From Jaapia argillacea MUCL 33604 (Eukaryota > Basidiomycota > Agaricomycetes > Jaapiales > Jaapiaceae), in assembly GCA_000697665.1 (NCBI GenBank), contig KL197723.1, forward strand, positions 532,765 through 582,652: 49,888 nucleotides of DNA, written 5' to 3'. Below, one piece after another: positions 6,441 to 41,473 of this stretch. The notes below the pieces were generated by a model, which was not told the origin of the DNA, ran no database searches, and saw nothing but the letters and a program-made list of their open reading frames with translations. Every line of letters begins with the position of its first letter. Positions within the stretch are counted from its first letter, which is position 1. The position numbers were made by a program, and so were the translations under genes.

Positions 6441-8253
6441 ATGTCCAACATCAATCCTCTCGCTGTTCTTCAATATCTGCAACTCGTCCGTCTCATTCAA
6501 CGTGAGTTCACCTATACAAGTGGCAAACATGATCTCCGTCTAATTGTGCTCTTTTGCGATCTTTAGTATCCGCAACTTTTGCCCCCGTTTACGATCATCG
6601 TGAGTTTGATTCACCAAACTGACACCTTGATCTCAGTTATGGGAAATCTGAATGTTCTTTCTCTAGTAATTTCGTTCGACCAAGAGGTTAGGAGTGACGC
6701 GACTCTTTCATTGTGTTTATCTGAGAATTTTTGATGTGTATACTGGCTAGGTCGAGTTTATCTGGGTATGTGATCCAGCTGTTCCTTGTTATCAACCGCT
6801 GAATCGCCGAGTACGGCAGAAACACCCAGGCATTTCTGCAAAGATATTCTTCGTATTGGTGCGATTTATTTCCATTCGAACGTGAGCCACTGTTGATTCT
6901 GGTGTAGACGCGATATGGTGGCAATTGCATAGTCATGTGAGTCTCCGTTTCAGTGTGAGGGATCGTTGGTGGTATACTGATGCCCTTCCTCCCCCCCACC
7001 GCTTCGTTCAGCACAATTTGTATCCGTAGGTCTGCTTCCGTGTCGATCTGGTTAATATCCCTAATGATCAACGTCCCAGTTCTCTTCACGGAGGTAACAT
7101 CAGTTAGTGTGAGTTTGTGCCCCCATCGGTCAGGCTATCGTCATTTCATCTCATCCTACCGCCCCGTTCTTCGGGTTTCAGTCGTAAGTTGAGGCACCAT
7201 ATCATAACCTCCGATGTTCACCCACCTTTTGGTCAAACAGATGTCTGTGCTCATCCTCCCGATTTGAGTATATTTGCTAAACTATCGGTGTCTAGGTCAT
7301 AGTCGCGTCTTGCTCCAGGTATGGGCCACAGCGATACCTGCATGGATCGTGCAAGGTGCGGAGAAAGTCGCCCTTTCATTACCATCTCTTACCCTGTCAT
7401 TGCAACTCATCTCGCGCGTCGACCTCCCCCCTCCATAGTTATCATGCAATCTCGACTCTATGCAATGTACAACCGGTCGAAAAGAGTGCTAGTTTTCACC
7501 GGCACGTGTTTTGTGATTGAAATAATAGGTTCACTGGCCTTTGGTTTGTACCAGGATCTTCAAGGTATCACTTATCCTGAGCTTCATTGAGTTTGATCGA
7601 CTCATTGCTCCCTCGTCCACAGTCATCCCTGTTCGAGTATTTGACACCTGGACCGGCTGTATTGTGACCAAGATGCCTGAGTATAGGGTCGGCATGTGGC
7701 TAGCAATCATGGCTTATGAAGGGATCCTCTTCTTGCTCGCCCTCTACAAGACGTTGTTGCATTTGTTCCGGATGAACCACCCGTGGACAAGAAATAGTGT
7801 CGCCGACGTTCTGCTAAGGGATAATCTCTTGTATTTCTTTGTGTTCGTCCCTTCATTCTCCTCAGCCAATGTATCTCGCTCACCTAGTCTTTCTCTTAGC
7901 ATATTTTCGAATTATTGCCTCACCGTCGTCGCCTGGTTCGCTCTTCCAGTACGTCCAACACAGCCCGCCTCTTTTTTGGATGTCGATGATTCCAGAACCC
8001 TGACCAAAATCGACAGCTCGTCTGGGTAGAGATCCTCGGCAGTTTCAACATCACAGTAACCTGCACATTGGGCTGTCGTCTCATCCTCAACATCCGAGAA
8101 GTGTCATATCGACACCAGAAGTGCGTGAACACGGCGGAGATTGAGTATCAGCTGAGAGAGTTGGCTGATGGACCTGCGTTGGCTTCGAGCATTGATCCAG
8201 CCGATAGTTCGGTTCATGGTGAACGGGATGATGATGGGAGGGATGGGAGGTAG
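6441..8253 (+). CDS. DUF6533-type multi-pass membrane protein, copy B (15 exons)
   Basis: A complete 311-residue model in 15 exons: 6441-6501, 6567-6599, 6667-6686, 6751-6765, 6820-6858, 6908-6936, 7012-7025, 7080-7108, 7182-7183, 7241-7242, 7296-7355, 7439-7564, 7623-7842, 7900-7948, 8017-8253. All introns are GT-AG and all phases close. The DUF6533 signature is clear: YDH-LISF-DQEVELIW followed by K-PGISAKIFF and TRY. Later hydrophobic segments include VWATAIPAWIVQ, the VIMQSRLYAMYNRSKR region, YEGILFLLALYKTLLHL and LTVVAWFALP. The tail is soluble and acidic. Roughly seven membrane spans are likely. The ATG at 6441 gives MSNINPLAVLQYLQLVRLIQ, matching the start of copy C. The biochemical role is unknown. 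Two 2-nt exons are the oddity of this model. Confidence 0.85.
7182..7242 (+). other. Pair of 2-nt micro-exons (TC at 7182-7183, AT at 7241-7242) in copy B
   Basis: The exon ending at 7108 is in phase 0 and the exon starting at 7296 needs one extra nucleotide (mod 3) before it. The only sites that supply it and recur in all copies are AG-TC-GTAAGT at 7181-7189 and AG-AT-GTCTGT at 7239-7248. Together with the GT of exon 11 they spell TCA TGT (Ser-Cys). The flanking introns are 73, 57 and 53 nt, a normal size for this genome, and the third carries a CTAA branch-like site. Skipping both exons or either one leads to an in-frame stop soon after. Confidence 0.7.
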
Positions 8254-14158: not shown

Positions 14159-15536
14159 ATGTCCAACATCGATCCTCTCGCCGTTATTCAATATCTGCAA
14201 CTCGTCCGTCTCATTCAACGTGAGTTCACATACACAAATGGCAAATTTGGTCTCCGTCTAATTGTGCTCTTTTGCGATCTTTAGTATCTGCAACTTTTGC
14301 CCCCATTTACGATCATCGTGAGTCTGATTCACCAAACTGACACCTTGATCTCAGTTATGGGGAATATGAATGTTCTTCCCCTAGTAATTTCTTTTGACCA
14401 AGAGGTTAGGAGTCACACGACTCGTTCATTATATTTATCTGAGAACTTTTGAACTTGTTAGGTCAAGTTTATCTGGGTATGTGATCCAACTGATCCTTGT
14501 TATCAACCGCTGAATCGCCGACTACGGCAGAAACAGCGAGGCATTTCTGCAAAGATATTCTTCCTAATGGTGCGATATATTTCCATTCGAACTTGAGCCA
14601 CTGCTGATTCTGGTGTAGACGCGATATGGTGGCAATTACATGCTCATGTGAGTCTCCATTTCAGTGTGAGCGATCATTGGTGGAGCACTGATGCCCTGCC
14701 CGGCCGCCCGCCCGTTCATTCAGCACAAATCTGATCTGTAGGTCTGCTTCTATGCCTATCCGGTTAATATCCCTAACGATCAGCGGCCTAGTTCACTTCG
14801 CAGAGGCAAATTCAGCTAGTGTGAGTTTGTGCCTCCATCCGTCAGGCTATCGTCATTTCATCTCATCCTACCGCCCCGTTCTTCGGGTTTCAGTCGTAAG
14901 TTGAGCCACCATATCACAACTTCTGATCTTCACCCACCTTTGGTCAAACAGATGTCTGTGCTCATCCTCCCGATTCGAGTATATTTGCTAAACTGTCGAT
15001 GTGTAGGTCATAGTCGCATCTTGCAGCAGGTATGGGCCACAGCGATACTCGCGTGGGTCGTGCAAGGTGCGGAGAAAGTCGCCCTTTCATTGCCATCTCT
15101 TATCCTGCCATTGCAACTCATCTCGCGTGTCGACCTCCCCCCCCCCCCCCATAGTTATCCTGCAATGTCGTCTCTATGCACTATACAACCGCTCGAAAAG
15201 GGTGCTAGTTTTCACCGGCACATGTTTTGTGATTGAAATCATAGCTTCACTGGCCTTTGGTTTGTACCGGGATCTCCAAGGTATCACTTATGCTCGGCTT
15301 CATTGAATTTGATTGATTCATTGCTCCGTCGTCCACAGCCCTCCCTTTTCGAGCGTTTGATACCTGGACCGGCTGTATTGTGACCAACATGCCTGAGTAT
15401 AGGGTCGGCATGTGGCTAGCAATTATGGCTTATGAAGGGATCCTCTTCTTGCTCGCTCTCTACAAGACATTTTTACATTTGTTACGGATGAACCAGCCGT
15501 GGACAAGGGATAGCGTCGCCGACGTGCTGCTCAGAG
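14159..15536 (+). CDS. DUF6533-type membrane protein, copy C (3' end lost in assembly gap)
   Basis: The start ATG at 14159 gives MSNIDPLAVIQYLQLVRLIQ. Exons equivalent to copy B exons 1-12 and most of 13 are present with open phases up to the N run. They include the EVELIW-type junction region, HSRILQQVWATAILAWVVQ, a CRLYALYNRSKRVLVFTGT region and YEGILFLLALYKTFLHLLRM. Micro-exons are TC at 14894-14895 and AT at 14952-14953. The intron before exon 12 ends in a run of about a dozen C's just ahead of the AG; copy B has a short mixed C/T tract there. The last exons lie in the gap, and the sequence after the gap (16387 on) is the 3' flank. It is probably an intact gene with missing sequence. Confidence 0.75.
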
Positions 15537-16386
15537 NNNNNNNNNNNNNNNNNNNNNNNNNNNNNNNNNNNNNNNNNNNNNNNNNNNNNNNNNNNNNNNN
15601 NNNNNNNNNNNNNNNNNNNNNNNNNNNNNNNNNNNNNNNNNNNNNNNNNNNNNNNNNNNNNNNNNNNNNNNNNNNNNNNNNNNNNNNNNNNNNNNNNNNN
15701 NNNNNNNNNNNNNNNNNNNNNNNNNNNNNNNNNNNNNNNNNNNNNNNNNNNNNNNNNNNNNNNNNNNNNNNNNNNNNNNNNNNNNNNNNNNNNNNNNNNN
15801 NNNNNNNNNNNNNNNNNNNNNNNNNNNNNNNNNNNNNNNNNNNNNNNNNNNNNNNNNNNNNNNNNNNNNNNNNNNNNNNNNNNNNNNNNNNNNNNNNNNN
15901 NNNNNNNNNNNNNNNNNNNNNNNNNNNNNNNNNNNNNNNNNNNNNNNNNNNNNNNNNNNNNNNNNNNNNNNNNNNNNNNNNNNNNNNNNNNNNNNNNNNN
16001 NNNNNNNNNNNNNNNNNNNNNNNNNNNNNNNNNNNNNNNNNNNNNNNNNNNNNNNNNNNNNNNNNNNNNNNNNNNNNNNNNNNNNNNNNNNNNNNNNNNN
16101 NNNNNNNNNNNNNNNNNNNNNNNNNNNNNNNNNNNNNNNNNNNNNNNNNNNNNNNNNNNNNNNNNNNNNNNNNNNNNNNNNNNNNNNNNNNNNNNNNNNN
16201 NNNNNNNNNNNNNNNNNNNNNNNNNNNNNNNNNNNNNNNNNNNNNNNNNNNNNNNNNNNNNNNNNNNNNNNNNNNNNNNNNNNNNNNNNNNNNNNNNNNN
16301 NNNNNNNNNNNNNNNNNNNNNNNNNNNNNNNNNNNNNNNNNNNNNNNNNNNNNNNNNNNNNNNNNNNNNNNNNNNNNNNNNNNNNN
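15537..16386. other. Assembly gap (850 N)
   Basis: All bases are N. The missing part should hold the last exons of DUF6533 copy C. By comparison with copies A and B only about 570 bp would be needed, so the gap size may be an estimate or extra sequence may lie here. Open frames drawn through it have no meaning. Confidence 0.95.
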
Positions 16387-32640: not shown

Positions 32641-34492
32641 ATGCAAGACTTTGATCCGGTCGGCTTGGTCCAACACTTGCAGGTTCTCCGTCTTGTCCAA
32701 CGTGAGTTCGGAGGGGAAACGTGGTGATCGACATTTTGTGTCTAATAACCATCTTTTGTGGACACCAGTTTCGGCGACCTTTGCCACCATTTACGACCAC
32801 GGTGAGCATTCGCCATGTTCGTGCCCTCCCGAATCACCGGAAACCCCAGATTCTTTCGTTAGTGATCGTCTTTGACCAAGAGGTACCACAACAACGTCAT
32901 CTTTCCCCTGTAACTTTTGCTCATAATGTGTGACGTCGTTGGGTTAGGTCGAACTTATCTGGGTATGTTGCTTAGTCTCTTATCGCGTTATCAACCGCTG
33001 AACCTGAGTATTTGGTAGAAACGTCCGGGAATCTCGGCAAAGATATTCTTCCTACTGGTACGAGCGTCTTCACTCCGGCGTGATACCGCTGTTGATCTTG
33101 AAACAGACTCGATACTGTGGCGATGGTTTCGTCATGTAAGTCTCCGTTTTTGATAAATGATCGATTACTTCATGCCGATGCCTCATTTTTTGTGGTAGCG
33201 CCATTTTGATCCGTATGTTTGCCTTTCCGTCCCTCCGGCCCACCCATTGATAGTGAACTACCTAGTTGTGCTCACAGAGGCAACCTCAGATAGCGTGAGC
33301 ACCTAGTCTTACCTTTCATTCGTCTACTTATGATTGGCTTGCTCCCAATATTGTCAGTCGTGAGTCAAGAAACATTTGTTTACACTATGACATCTTTCAC
33401 CTACGTTGGTTACATAGATGTCGGTACACATCGTCTCGGTCGACAAAATGCTCAACTCTCATTTTCCAGGCCACGAACGTCTTCTGCTGCAAATATGGGC
33501 TACTTCAATACCTGCCTGGATAGTGCAAGGTATGCATAAAGTCGGCCTTCCAGGGCTATTCCGATTCCTGCCACTATTGTTGAATCTCATCTCCTAACCC
33601 TATCCTCCGGCTCCAAAGTTATCATGCAGTTCCGAGTCTATGCATTATACAACCGCGCGAAATGGGTTCTTGCTCTCACGTTTACGTGTTTCATGATTCA
33701 AATAGCAATTTCAATGACTTTGTTCGTCATGTATCAAGACGTCCGAGGTAATAATATCACTTTGCTCGCGCTCCTTCGTCATTTTTTATGATTTGCTGAT
33801 TTCACTCTTTTCGTGTCAGTTATCGTCGTCAAGTTCGGTATATGGACGAACTGCGTGGTGACCCAGATGCCAGCCCATTCAATTGGGACATACGTCTCGA
33901 TGATGGTGTTTGAAGGAATCTTGTTTTCTCTCGTACTCTATAAGACGGTAGTACATTTGCTCCGGCTCAGTTATCTTTGGACAAGGAATAGCGCCACTGA
34001 GGTTCTACTGAGAGACAACATCCTATATTTCTTGGTGTTCGTCTGTCCAATTTCCTTTCATCGTTGCAAATATCGCTCATCCCATAGTTTTTAGTATATT
34101 CTCGATTTATTGTCTCACGGTCATCGCTTGGTTCGCTTTACCCGTGCGTTCGGATACACACCCTTTTTCTGCATTCTTTTCCGAGTTGAAGCTGATCGGT
34201 TATTTCATACCAATAGATTATCTGGGTCGAGGTCTTAAGTAGCCTGAAGGTCACCGCAACCTGCACGCTTGGCTGTAGGCTGCTCCTCGATATTCGAGAC
34301 GCAGCTTATCGACACGAGGAGTGTGTAAACACGGAAGAGATCGATTTCCAGTTGAGGGAGTTGGCGGATGGTGAACTTCATCGCGGAGCCCTGTCTTCAA
34401 GCGGAGATCCAGCCGATAGCTCGGCTAGTGGTCGACGCAACGGTGAAGGGGACGAGAGGGCTGAAGTGCAATCACAACAGGGGACAGTGTAA
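32641..34492 (+). CDS. DUF6533-type multi-pass membrane protein, copy D
   Basis: The ATG at 32641 gives MQDFDPVGLVQHLQVLRLVQ; stop TAA at 34490-34492. The same 15-exon structure as copy B can be traced with open phases. Landmarks are ATFATIYDH-VIVFDQE-VELIW (the last five codons form their own 15-nt exon), KRPGISAKIFFLL, TRYCGDGF, LLLQIWATSIPAWIVQ, MQFRVYALYNRAKWVLALTF, EGILFSLVLYKTVVHLLRL, IFSIYCLTVIAWFALP and TCTLGCRLLLDIRDAAYRH. Micro-exons are TC at 33358-33359 and AT at 33418-33419. It is about 310 residues, membrane-located, of unknown role. It is closer to copies E and F than to A-C in its start and flanks. Confidence 0.83.
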
Positions 34493-36593: not shown

Positions 36594-38415
36594 ATGAAAG
36601 ACTTTGATCCCGTCGGTTTGGTTCAACACTTGCAGCTTCTCCGCCTCGTCCAACGTAAGTTCAGAGTGGAAAAATGTGAAAAATCGACACTTGGCGTCTA
36701 ACAGCCATCTTTTGTGTGTACTTACTCTAGTTTCGGCAACCTTTGCCACAATTTACGATCACCGTGAGCATCTACCACATTTCCGCCCCACCCAATTCAC
36801 TCGAGATCCTAATCCTTTGGTTAGTGATCCTCATTGACCAAGAGGTATGTAGTTTCAACGACTTCATCTTTTCCCCGGACCTGTTGCTAAGAATGTATGA
36901 TGTCCGCCGGGTTAGGTCGAACTTATCTGGGTGTGTTATTTAATCTCTTTTGCGTTCTCGACCACTGAACTGGAAAATGTGGGGTCGGTAGAAGCGTCCG
37001 GGAATCACAGCGAAGATATTCTTCTTACTGGTACAAGCATTTCTCACTCCTCTGCGAAGCTACCGTTGATCTTGGTACAGACTCGATACTGTGGCGATGG
37101 CGTCATTGTGTAAGCCAGATAGATGATCGATTATTTCATACTAAGCCTCCTTACTTGCGGCAGTGCCATTTTGATCCGTATGTTTCCCCTACCGTTCGTC
37201 CGGCCTACCCGTTGATTTGTAACTGCGTAGTTCTCCTCACCGAGGCAACCTCAGATAACGTGAGCTTCGTGACTCGTTCTTTATTCCTCTACTCATGATT
37301 GGCTTGCTCGCACTGTTGTCAGGCGTGAGTCAAGGATCATTTGTGTAAACTATATTCATCCATCACCAACGTTTGCTACATAGATGTTAGTCCACGTCCA
37401 TGCTATTGTCCAATTGCTAAATTATTATGCCCCAGGTCGCAGCCGTTTCCTTCTACAAATATGGGCGACCACAATACCTATCTTCGTAGTGCAAGGTATG
37501 TATTGAAGTCGCCCCTGCAGGGTTATACATGGCACTTCAATCGAATCTCATCGCACGTTCCTGCCTCTGCCTCCAAAGTTGTCATGCAATTCCGAGTCTA
37601 TGCATTGTATAACCGCGCAAAATGGGTTCTCGCTCTCACCTTCACGTTTTTCATCATCCAAATGGCAACTACCCTGGCTCTTTTAGCCGAGTATCAAGAG
37701 GTCCATGGTATTGCTTGCTCCTTCATCGGTTTTTTTGTGATTTGCTGATTTAACTCTTCTCGTCAGTCATCGCCATCAAGCTCGGCATCTGGACGAACTG
37801 TGTAGTGACCAATTTTCCAACGGATGTAGTCGGGACATGGATCTCGATGATGGGTTTTGAAGGAATTTTGTTCTTTCTCGCCCTCTACAAGACAGTGTTA
37901 CATTTACTCCGGCTCAATCATCCTTGGACAAGAAACGGCGCCGTTGAGGTCCTCGTGAGAGATAACATCCTATATTTCTTGATGTTCGTCCACCCGATTT
38001 CCGTATTGTTGATTTAGCTCATCCCACAGTTCCCAGTATGTTCTCGATTTATTGTCTCACAGTCATCGCCTGGTTCACTTTATCCGTGAGATCGCTCCTT
38101 TCGGTTCTTTTTTGGGTACCGAGGACCTAACTGTATCAACAGATAATCTGGATTGAGATCTTGACTACTTTGAATCTCACTGCGACCTGTACGCTAGGCT
38201 GCCGGCTCATCCTCAATATCCGGGAGGTATCATATCAACACGAGCAGTGCGTAAACACGGAGGAGATCGAATTCCAGTTGAGGCAGTTGGCAGATGGAAT
38301 ACATCGAGGAGAGTTGTCTTCGGGTGCTGATACTGCTGAAAGTTTGGCTCGTGGTAGACACGACGATTGTGGATACGAGAGGGGTGAGGGGGGATCACGA
38401 CAGAATGTAGCATAG
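36594..38415 (+). CDS. DUF6533-type multi-pass membrane protein, copy E
   Basis: The ATG at 36594 gives MKDFDPVGLVQHLQLLRLVQ; stop TAG at 38413-38415. All 15 exons of the copy B plan are found with GT-AG sites and closed phases. Landmarks are ATFATIYDH, LILIDQEVELIW, KRPGITAKIFFLL, TRYCGDGVIV, IAILILLLTEATSDN, FLLQIWATTIPIFVVQ, MQFRVYALYNRAKWVLALTF, EGILFFLALYKTVLHLLRL and TCTLGCRLILNIREVSYQH. Micro-exons are GC at 37323-37324 and AT at 37384-37385 (Ala-Cys at the junction). The 14-nt exon before the GTATGT donor near 37178 is also conserved. It is probably functional, with unknown role. Confidence 0.83.
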
Positions 38416-39640: not shown

Positions 39641-41473
39641 ATGCAAGACTTTGATCCCGTCAGCTTCGTTCAGGACTTGCAGCTTCTCCACCTCTTCCAA
39701 CGTGAGTTCAATGTAGGAACGTTGGAAATTTACGCTGGCGCTCACGGAGTTGCAATTGTCTTTGCGAATGCCAGTCTCGGCAGCCGTTGTCACCATTTGG
39801 GATCACCGTGAGTAATTTTCACCTCACTTTTTCCTCCCCGAGCTACTGGAAATCCAACGGCTCTCCGGCAGTGATTCTCTTTGACCAAGAGGTCAGCAAC
39901 GATATCTGTTCTTTGGGACTGAACTGAGACTGACCGATGCCTAATGGGTTAGGTCGAACTTATCTGGGTATGCTATCACTCTCCCTCGAGTTATCGACCG
40001 CTGAAGCATAAAATTGGCAGAAACGTCCGGGAATCATTGCAAAGATTTTCTTCGTCCTGGTACAAGTGATTTCCACCCACCGTGAACCACCGCTGATCCC
40101 GGTGTAGACTCGATATTGCGGCCCTTGTTTCATCGTGTAAGTCTCCCATTTGCCACAGATGATCGATCTTATGCTGATGCCTTTCTCCTCTGTGTAGCTT
40201 CATTTTGATCTGTGTGTTTGACTTTGTGTCGAACTGACCCACCCAATTGACTAAATTGCCTAGTTAACTTTACTGGCGCAAACTCGGACAGCGTGAGTTC
40301 TCGTCTTATTGTTCTATCATCTGCTCACCTTGGGCGCTCTCCCACCATTGTCAGGTGTGAGTGGAAAATCAATCGTCTATACTATATAATCTTCCACCTA
40401 CACTTTTTGCACAGATGTTGGTCCACAGCTTCTCCGGTGAAAAGACTGCTGAACTCTTATGTTTCAGGTCGTAGCCATCTTCTCGTGCAAGCATGGGCTA
40501 GTATGTTACCAGGCTGGGTCGTGCAAGGTGTGCACGAACTCTCCCTTCGAGGGCAATCCCTACGAATCCAATGTCGTGTTTTGACCTCAACCATGAAGTT
40601 ATCATGCAGTTTCGAGTCTATGCAATGTATAACCGCCAGAAATGGGTCCTCGCATTCACATTCACATGTTTTATCGCTCAAGTTGTGGTTGTATCCGCTT
40701 TTTTTCTTTTGCACAACTATGTTCCAGGTATCGGCCATCTTGCAACCCACCTCCCCCTTGATCTTGGCTTGCTGATTATACCCTCCTAATCTAACCCTGT
40801 CAGTCATCTCCATCAAATTCGCTAATTGGACGGCCTGTGCAATTACCGAGCAGTCAGCAGATGCAATTGTGCCAGGGCTCTCAATTATGATCTTTGAAGG
40901 CATCTTGTTTTTCTTCGCCCTCTATAAGACGGTGATGCATGTGCTACGACTGAATTATCCTTGGACAAGTGATGGCGCCATTGAGGTTCTACTGAGGGAT
41001 AATATCCTATATTTCTTGATGTTCGTCCTTATGATTTCCGTTCGTTGTCGATCTGGCTTACCCCACGGTTTTCAGGATGTTCTTGTTTTACGGTCTGCTG
41101 GTCATTGGCTGGTTCACTGTTCCCGTGTGTTTTGAGACACACCCATCACTCTTTCCCACTCTCTTCGGTTATCGAGGACCTGACCCTCTGTCCATGTCAA
41201 CAGATGATCTGGATTGAGATCTTAAGCTACTTGAATATCGCAGCAACCTGCACGCTTGGATGTTGGCTCATGCTCAATATCCGAGAAGTATCATATCGAC
41301 ACGAGGAGTGTTTAAACACACAGGAAGTGTCCTTCCAGTTGAGGGAGTTGGGGAATGGAGTTCAACGAGGAGTTGTGTCTTTAGGTGCTGATCCTACCGA
41401 CAGCGTGGTTAGACGCGACGATAATGGGGTGGAGGGCGGCGGCGGTGGGCATGAATCGCGCGTGGTTGTGTAG
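39641..41473 (+). CDS. DUF6533-type multi-pass membrane protein, copy F
   Basis: The ATG at 39641 gives MQDFDPVSFVQDLQLLHLFQ; stop TAG at 41471-41473. The 15-exon plan is conserved: VVTIWDH-LILFDQE-VELIW, KRPGIIAKIFFVL, TRYCGPCFIV, HLLVQAWASMLPGWVVQ, MQFRVYAMYNRQKWVLAFTF, EGILFFFALYKTVMHVLRL, FYGLLVIGWFTVP and TCTLGCWLMLNIREVSYRH. Micro-exons are GT at 40355-40356 and AT at 40415-40416, giving Val-Cys. It is the most diverged copy, with a longer insert after the exon 13 start (ACAITEQSADAIVPG). It is probably functional. Confidence 0.82.

Follow-up and report, generated by a model that had tools for sequence, protein, structure and literature searches.

A predicted pair of consecutive 2-nt exons across a DUF6533 paralog family of Jaapia argillacea

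Exons of a single nucleotide have been described in the plant genes APC11 and VPS55 (PMC8831610). For the 1-nt exon of Arabidopsis APC11, intron definition together with recursive splicing was suggested, with the flanking introns being removed in turn (Guo and Liu, 2015; PMC4674806). A fungal example is the 1-nt exon of the Fusarium P450 CYP621A, which completes a codon in a conserved motif and was first inferred from the reading frame, from orthologs and from an intronless relative (Nelson and Syed, 2026; PMC12940212). Adjoining microexons are also on record, namely an adjacent pair of 5 + 12 nt in plants and an alga (PMC8831610; PMC11096116), the algal case being described as gradual intronization (PMC11096116), and a trio of 3, 18 and 22 nt in human RPS24 (PMC11162997). 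In the stwintrons of fungi, adjoining short introns are removed by consecutive splicing reactions, with one intron interrupting another's splice element and no intervening sequence being retained (PMC5639578).

The gene family considered here, from Jaapia argillacea MUCL 33604, resembles APC11 in that a constitutive ultra-small exon would be kept in the mRNA; the published description of APC11 concerns one exon in a single-copy gene, with transcription and translation assays in protoplasts (PMC4674806). That of CYP621A likewise concerns one 1-nt exon, with 20 orthologs and 18 SRA reads (PMC12940212), whereas the present family would have two 2-nt exons in more than 50 paralogs of one genome and is known from sequence alone. 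The plant and algal pair and the RPS24 trio share the adjoining arrangement but consist of longer exons, the present pair totalling four nucleotides, and in contrast to the stwintrons these four bases would be kept. The family has its Pfam domain, DUF6533, in common with SNB1 of Coprinopsis cinerea, a protein with seven predicted transmembrane helices; the domain is described as basidiomycete-specific, and the section on SNB1 is silent on 2-nt exons (PMC10949477). A search of the open-access literature, mostly at title and abstract level and thus short of proving absence, turned up neither a pair of consecutive 2-nt exons, nor a family of more than 50 genes needing them, nor a DUF6533 family gene structure of this kind. 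The pair would be an extreme form within the known class of ultra-small internal exons, of at most 15 nt, and one that recurs unusually often among paralogs.

The window, i.e. the whole stretch of DNA analyzed, comprises 49,888 nt of KL197723.1 from a genome of 43.7 Mb. A sequence-only reading of this window had claimed that in five paralogs, copies B to F, exons 8 and 11 are separated by two consecutive places at which an acceptor AG and a donor GT lie exactly 2 nt apart. When the letters were read directly, all ten sites were found exactly as given, each with AG before and GT after it. All of the following features lie on the forward strand. In copy B, exon 8 (7080–7108, 29 nt, with a phase 0 end) is followed by the first intron of the trio (7109–7181, 73 nt, GTGAGT..CAG), the first 2-nt exon TC (7182–7183), which supplies positions 1 and 2 of a Ser codon, the second intron (7184–7240, 57 nt, GTAAGT..CAG), the second 2-nt exon AT (7241–7242), which supplies the Ser wobble base and the first base of a Cys codon, and the third intron (7243–7295, 53 nt, GTCTGT..TAG, with GCTAAAC close to its 3' end). 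Exon 11 (7296–7355) starts with GT, the remainder of the Cys codon. These intron bounds agree with the span of 7109..7295 given earlier for this site, and the spliced junction of copy B reads LFTEVTSVS-SC-HSRVLLQVWA.

The same order is seen in copy C, with exon 8 at 14792–14820, TC at 14894–14895, AT at 14952–14953 and exon 11 at 15007–15066. Copies B and C are near-identical duplicates. An N run at 15537–16386 interrupts copy C 3' of its microexons, and because it cuts the gene the model of this copy cannot be completed. In copy D, exon 8 lies at 33266–33294, TC at 33358–33359, AT at 33418–33419 and exon 11, here starting with GC, at 33470–33529; exons 1 to 11 of this copy together span 32641–33529 and measure 61, 33, 20, 15, 39, 29, 14, 29, 2, 2 and 60 nt. 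Copy E has exon 8 at 37231–37259, GC at 37323–37324, AT at 37384–37385 and exon 11 at 37436–37495, while the corresponding positions in copy F are 40264–40292, 40355–40356 (GT), 40415–40416 (AT) and 40468–40527. The first-exon dinucleotides are TC, TC, TC, GC and GT in B to F and the second is AT five times, again as claimed. Exon 8 is 29 nt long with a phase 0 end in all five copies, and exon 11 is 60 nt long with a GT or GC start in each of them.

With the end of exon 8 in phase 0 and two codon bases opening exon 11, a number of extra bases equal to 1 mod 3 is needed between them, and a frame check agreed with the earlier statement to this effect. The 2+2 nt yield X-Cys in every copy, namely S-C in B, C and D, A-C in E and V-C in F. 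A lone copy is nevertheless weak proof, because single AG-NN-GT sites are common, with 5 to 11 present per window copy.

Placement of the copies in DUF6533 was based on copy D, which after splicing, with the downstream exons joined by hand, scored 47.2 bits over its first 225 residues against a Pfam PF20151 cut-off of 24.1; copies B, C, E and F were placed by alignment to D. A search of the genome with the spliced copy-D protein gave at least 146 exon matches (E up to 10), which were resolved into at least 58 distinct loci. Among these matches, 22 loci were placed on C15 (the window's five included), 13 on C8, six on C9, four on C6, three each on C75 and C47 and seven elsewhere. Two of the 58 (L089 and L091) belong to a class in which the site is uninterrupted, leaving 56 testable loci, and these were scanned for chains in which two in-frame 2-nt exons are enclosed by three introns, each 38 to 109 nt long.

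A chain of the form GT..AG-NN-GT..AG-NT-GT..AG was found between exons 8 and 11 in 53 of the 56 loci, in one case (L060) with GC as a donor. Each of the three loci with no chain is without one donor, that of intron 2 in L054, of intron 1 in L068 and of intron 3 in L082. In these the layout is kept, with the donor GT replaced by AT, AT and GG, respectively, and they are perhaps recent pseudogenes. A single chain was possible in 46 of the 53 loci and the donor score decided in the other seven (L039, L067, L077, L079, L081, L088 and L090), where four of the chains passed over would have lacked the Cys. The median lengths of the three introns are 61, 60 and 53 nt, with ranges of 38–85, 53–79 and 50–67 nt, the first range taking in some exon 8 donors that were misjudged. 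This donor was chosen by a simple score, and the choice is clearly wrong in L085 and in copy E, where the conserved donor GTGAGC was also among the candidates, and open to doubt in several distant loci. The statistics of intron 1 are blurred by these cases, while the microexons are unaffected.

All of these loci are paralogs of one genome, and introns can still be aligned within the C15 group and within the C8 group, so the 53 loci cannot be counted as independent of one another. What carries weight is the agreement between distant groups. Among 18 diverse loci, intron identity was 0.555, 0.578 and 0.588 for the three introns in order, against 0.554, 0.565 and 0.570 for shuffled sequences. The measure is blunt, since exon 11 itself scores 0.613 against 0.586 when shuffled, and it indicates divergence of the introns with no sharp contrast to the exon.

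The recurrence of the arrangement was compared with chance by means of 100 dinucleotide shuffles, in which the 2+2 layout occurred in a mean of 0.53 and a maximum of 3 regions, against 52 of the 53 real regions. The remaining region, L060, failed this layout test, in which a GC donor was disallowed. As the 53 had been preselected for the chain from the 56 loci tested, the fair count is 53 of 56. Among other frame-correct pairs of exons of 1 to 7 nt, none occurred in more than 10 of the 53 regions. It is the recurrence across loci, not the single sites, that exceeds chance.

The four bases behave as codons, with the first exon variable and the T of the Cys codon fixed. Ten dinucleotides occur as first exon across the 53 loci, namely TC (22), GC (11), AT and AG (4 each), TT and GG (3 each), CA and GT (2 each), and GA and AC (1 each). 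The second exon is AT in 41 loci, TT in six, CT in four and GT in two, which is the spectrum expected for a free wobble base ahead of a fixed T. Its last base is T, and the second residue Cys, in all 53 selected chains; the G of this Cys codon was built into the scan, which demanded G as the first base of exon 11, while the T and the Y were left free. Seven residues after the Cys, Gln is found in 49 of the 53 spliced chains, with Leu in L042 and Glu in L053; in L079 and L081 this residue would be Gln if an alternative acceptor were used.

Related genes were also examined. A genome-wide Pfam search gave 46 DUF6533 matches; none of the C15 copies is among these, even though copy D after splicing exceeds the cut-off, and the presumed reason is the fragmentation of the domain into exons of 15 to 39 nt. 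The related genes examined were 28 of the 46 matches (L091–L098, L099–L116, L006 and L007), of which L091 is also among the 58 loci, while L114 and L089 denote one gene. The codons for X-Cys are contiguous in the DNA in 17 of the 28, for example as ATA TGC (L092), CAA TGC (L098), GGA TGT (L097) and TCC TGT (L091 and L007). In this class the residue at Cys +7 is Gln in 12 of the 17, Lys in L091, L007 and L099, His in L103 and Tyr in L115. Exactly one 2-nt exon was read, by eye, in five of the 28: AT in L094, AA in L095, GG in L096 and TT in both L112 and L113. The next exon of these five starts N-TGY, meaning that the phase 0 and phase 2 introns are present and the intron in the Cys codon is absent, and they appear to be an intermediate state. 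The other six (L101, L106, L108, L109, L110 and L116) were left unassigned. Taken with the chain in 53 of the 56 paralogs, the 17 contiguous and five single-microexon loci support the earlier proposal that the pair is a real splice pattern, and two consecutive 2-nt exons are very probably the correct reading.

A phylogenetic tree was constructed from 45 columns and 69 rows, covering 50 of the 53 two-microexon loci, four of the five single-microexon loci and 15 of the 17 contiguous loci. Left off were L079 and L081, where the exon 11 acceptor is ambiguous, L075, where exon 12 was not found, L092 and L111, where the second part was not found, and L113. In the rows of the two-microexon loci V was entered as the first residue of exon 12, the codon of which is interrupted by an intron, and in the row of L112 the last three letters are wrong, the sequence reading WL and then stop. 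The tree placed the two-microexon loci in one group, needing one change, with modest support (80/78, 82 percent of bootstrap trees), while the single-microexon loci sit at two places on long branches. Stepwise intron gain would be the simplest account, although loss is also possible, and the present layout may have arisen by such steps around an earlier exon encoding X-Cys. The presence of states with zero, one and two microexons in one genome offers a rare ladder for the study of intron gain and loss.

The layout can be written as exon 8 / XX / NT / GY.., with three short U2-type introns at phases 0, 2 and 1 that would lie within four coding nucleotides; the first 2-nt exon would provide positions 1 and 2 of residue X and the second its wobble base together with the T of the conserved Cys codon. 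Both exons would be required in the mRNA because omitting either or both shifts the frame. The introns, mostly of about 50 to 75 nt and thus in the size range that intron definition handles, are probably recognized in this way, with exon definition across 2 nt being implausible. Since spliceosomes cannot sit at both ends of a 2-nt exon simultaneously, the introns would be removed one after another, and each removal would rebuild the flank of the next donor. Stepwise removal is thus likely on purely steric grounds. Overall, it is considered highly probable from the sequence that this DUF6533 paralog family carries two consecutive 2-nt exons between three U2-type introns which are removed sequentially by intron definition.

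The splice signals of the three introns are unequal. Donor 2 conforms to GTRNGT in 49 of the 53 loci and donor 3 in 20, with a pyrimidine at +3 in 31 loci at donor 3 versus two at donor 2; all five window copies have this pyrimidine in the donor that follows the second 2-nt exon (7243, 14954, 33420, 37386 and 40417). Such an intron 3 donor is unusual and probably weak, and the asymmetry between donors 2 and 3 may set the order of removal. A loose branch-like motif, CTNA, was present in intron 1 of 46 of the 53 loci (17 in shuffled sequences) and in intron 3 of 43 (20 in shuffled sequences), lying exactly 19 nt from the 3' end of intron 3 in 28 loci; in intron 2 it was not enriched (18 versus 19). 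This looser motif was chosen after the sequences had been viewed, because strict motifs were not clearly enriched in intron 3, where CTRAY was found in 5 of 53 loci against 6.2 in shuffled sequences, YTNAY in 24 against 26.6 and CTNAC in 11 against 8.0. In intron 1 all three strict motifs are enriched; in introns 2 and 3 each of them stays within its shuffle maximum. Tandem duplication was also considered as the source of one intron from another, for which the numbers of shared 6-mers, real and shuffled, give no good evidence (1.36 and 1.19 for introns 1 and 2, 1.58 and 1.04 for introns 1 and 3, and 0.89 and 0.95 for introns 2 and 3).

The consequences of skipping were examined on a stretch consisting of the end of exon 8, exon 11 and the start of exon 12 in 51 of the 53 loci, L075 (no exon 12 found) and L049 (no exon 11 donor found) being left out. 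With both microexons included this stretch is open in 50 of the 51, the exception being L071, which has an in-frame stop within exon 12 and is probably a pseudogene. With neither included a stop arises in 50, all except copy F, and with only one included a stop arises in 30, the other 21 being frameshifted with no stop in the stretch. In copy B, including none or just one leads to a stop, as the sequence-only reading had stated; this does not extend to every copy, as D with one microexon and F with none are frameshifted without a stop. Retention of intron 2 would lead to a stop or frameshift in 52 of the 53 loci and that of intron 3 in 46. These counts, and the +3 pyrimidine in 31 of the intron 3 donors, would fit a regulated switch, in which inclusion of both exons gives the protein while skipping, faulty or regulated, or intron retention gives a stop and mRNA decay, with a subset of copies being expressed at any one time. 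However, such effects are common to any intron retention and the sequence gives no sign of regulation, and a switch of this kind is regarded as unlikely.

It is highly improbable that a single intron of about 180 nt joins exons 8 and 11, with the AG-NN-GT sites being decoys and the frame being kept by another splice site or by ribosomal slippage. The frequency of AG-NN-GT sites and a summed length short enough for one intron agree with this explanation, but joining the two exons directly gives the wrong phase, and the frame would run into the stops just described for the omission of both exons. Decoys also would not hold AG-NN-GT twice in 53 of the 56 loci, including distant paralogs whose introns are near the shuffled level of identity, nor would they always complete a Cys which is found contiguous in related genes.

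A stwintron, in which an internal intron would split the donor of an external one with no bases kept between, has documented parallels in the consecutive excision of adjoining fungal introns of about 50 nt (PMC5639578), and sequential removal is likely here too. On the other hand, a split donor ([D1,2] or [D2,3]) is readable in only 1, 6, 2, 2, 0 and 2 of the 53 loci for the six types of split donor counted, and loss of the four bases would break the frame, so the trio is very unlikely to be a stwintron. The term stwintron-like, which had been applied to the site, therefore holds for the likely stepwise removal, argued on steric grounds, and not for an interrupted splice element, given split donors in at most six of 53 loci per type. 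Zero-length ratchet points of recursive splicing were rejected, as two frame-required bases separate each AG from the following GT.

The family arrays might also consist mostly of pseudogenes, the layout being inherited but idle, and the exon 12 stop of L071 and the lost donors of L054, L068 and L082 are what would be expected in that case. Against this, the chain is open in all but one of the 51 loci, the splice sites and the T of the Cys codon are kept in 53 of 56, and a second, downstream Cys is present in all 47 copies that can be aligned there, with six of the 53 not aligning. The open chain, the kept sites and the conservation of both Cys residues indicate selection, and an idle layout seems extremely doubtful. 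A single bridging microexon of 1, 4, 7, 10, 13 or 16 nt is scarcely credible, as candidates of these sizes occur in 7 to 22 of the 53 loci with none above its shuffle maximum, the 13-nt candidate found in 22 loci just equalling that maximum (mean 12.95).

With regard to the protein, the reading as two consecutive 2-nt exons suggests, with reasonable likelihood, that a seven-helix family of more than 50 genes needs both exons for its product and that the three introns have been under selection since before the expansion of the family. The Cys completed by the second exon may have a structural role. G-protein-coupled receptors contain a disulfide, and by analogy a similar bond between this Cys and the second conserved Cys is possible in DUF6533 proteins, in view of the seven-helix prediction for SNB1.

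The pair of exons bears on the minimum size of an exon and on whether exons of minimal size can be direct neighbors. As exon definition is implausible at 2 nt, the approximately 50 natural variants with their differing donors could serve as a test of intron definition and ordered splicing. The site would also represent a blind spot in annotation, with gene finders that bar tiny exons frameshifting the proteins at a conserved cysteine. It should also be noted that members of the family form large local arrays, one at 449–627 kb of C15 with genes on both strands and another at 40–75 kb of C8.
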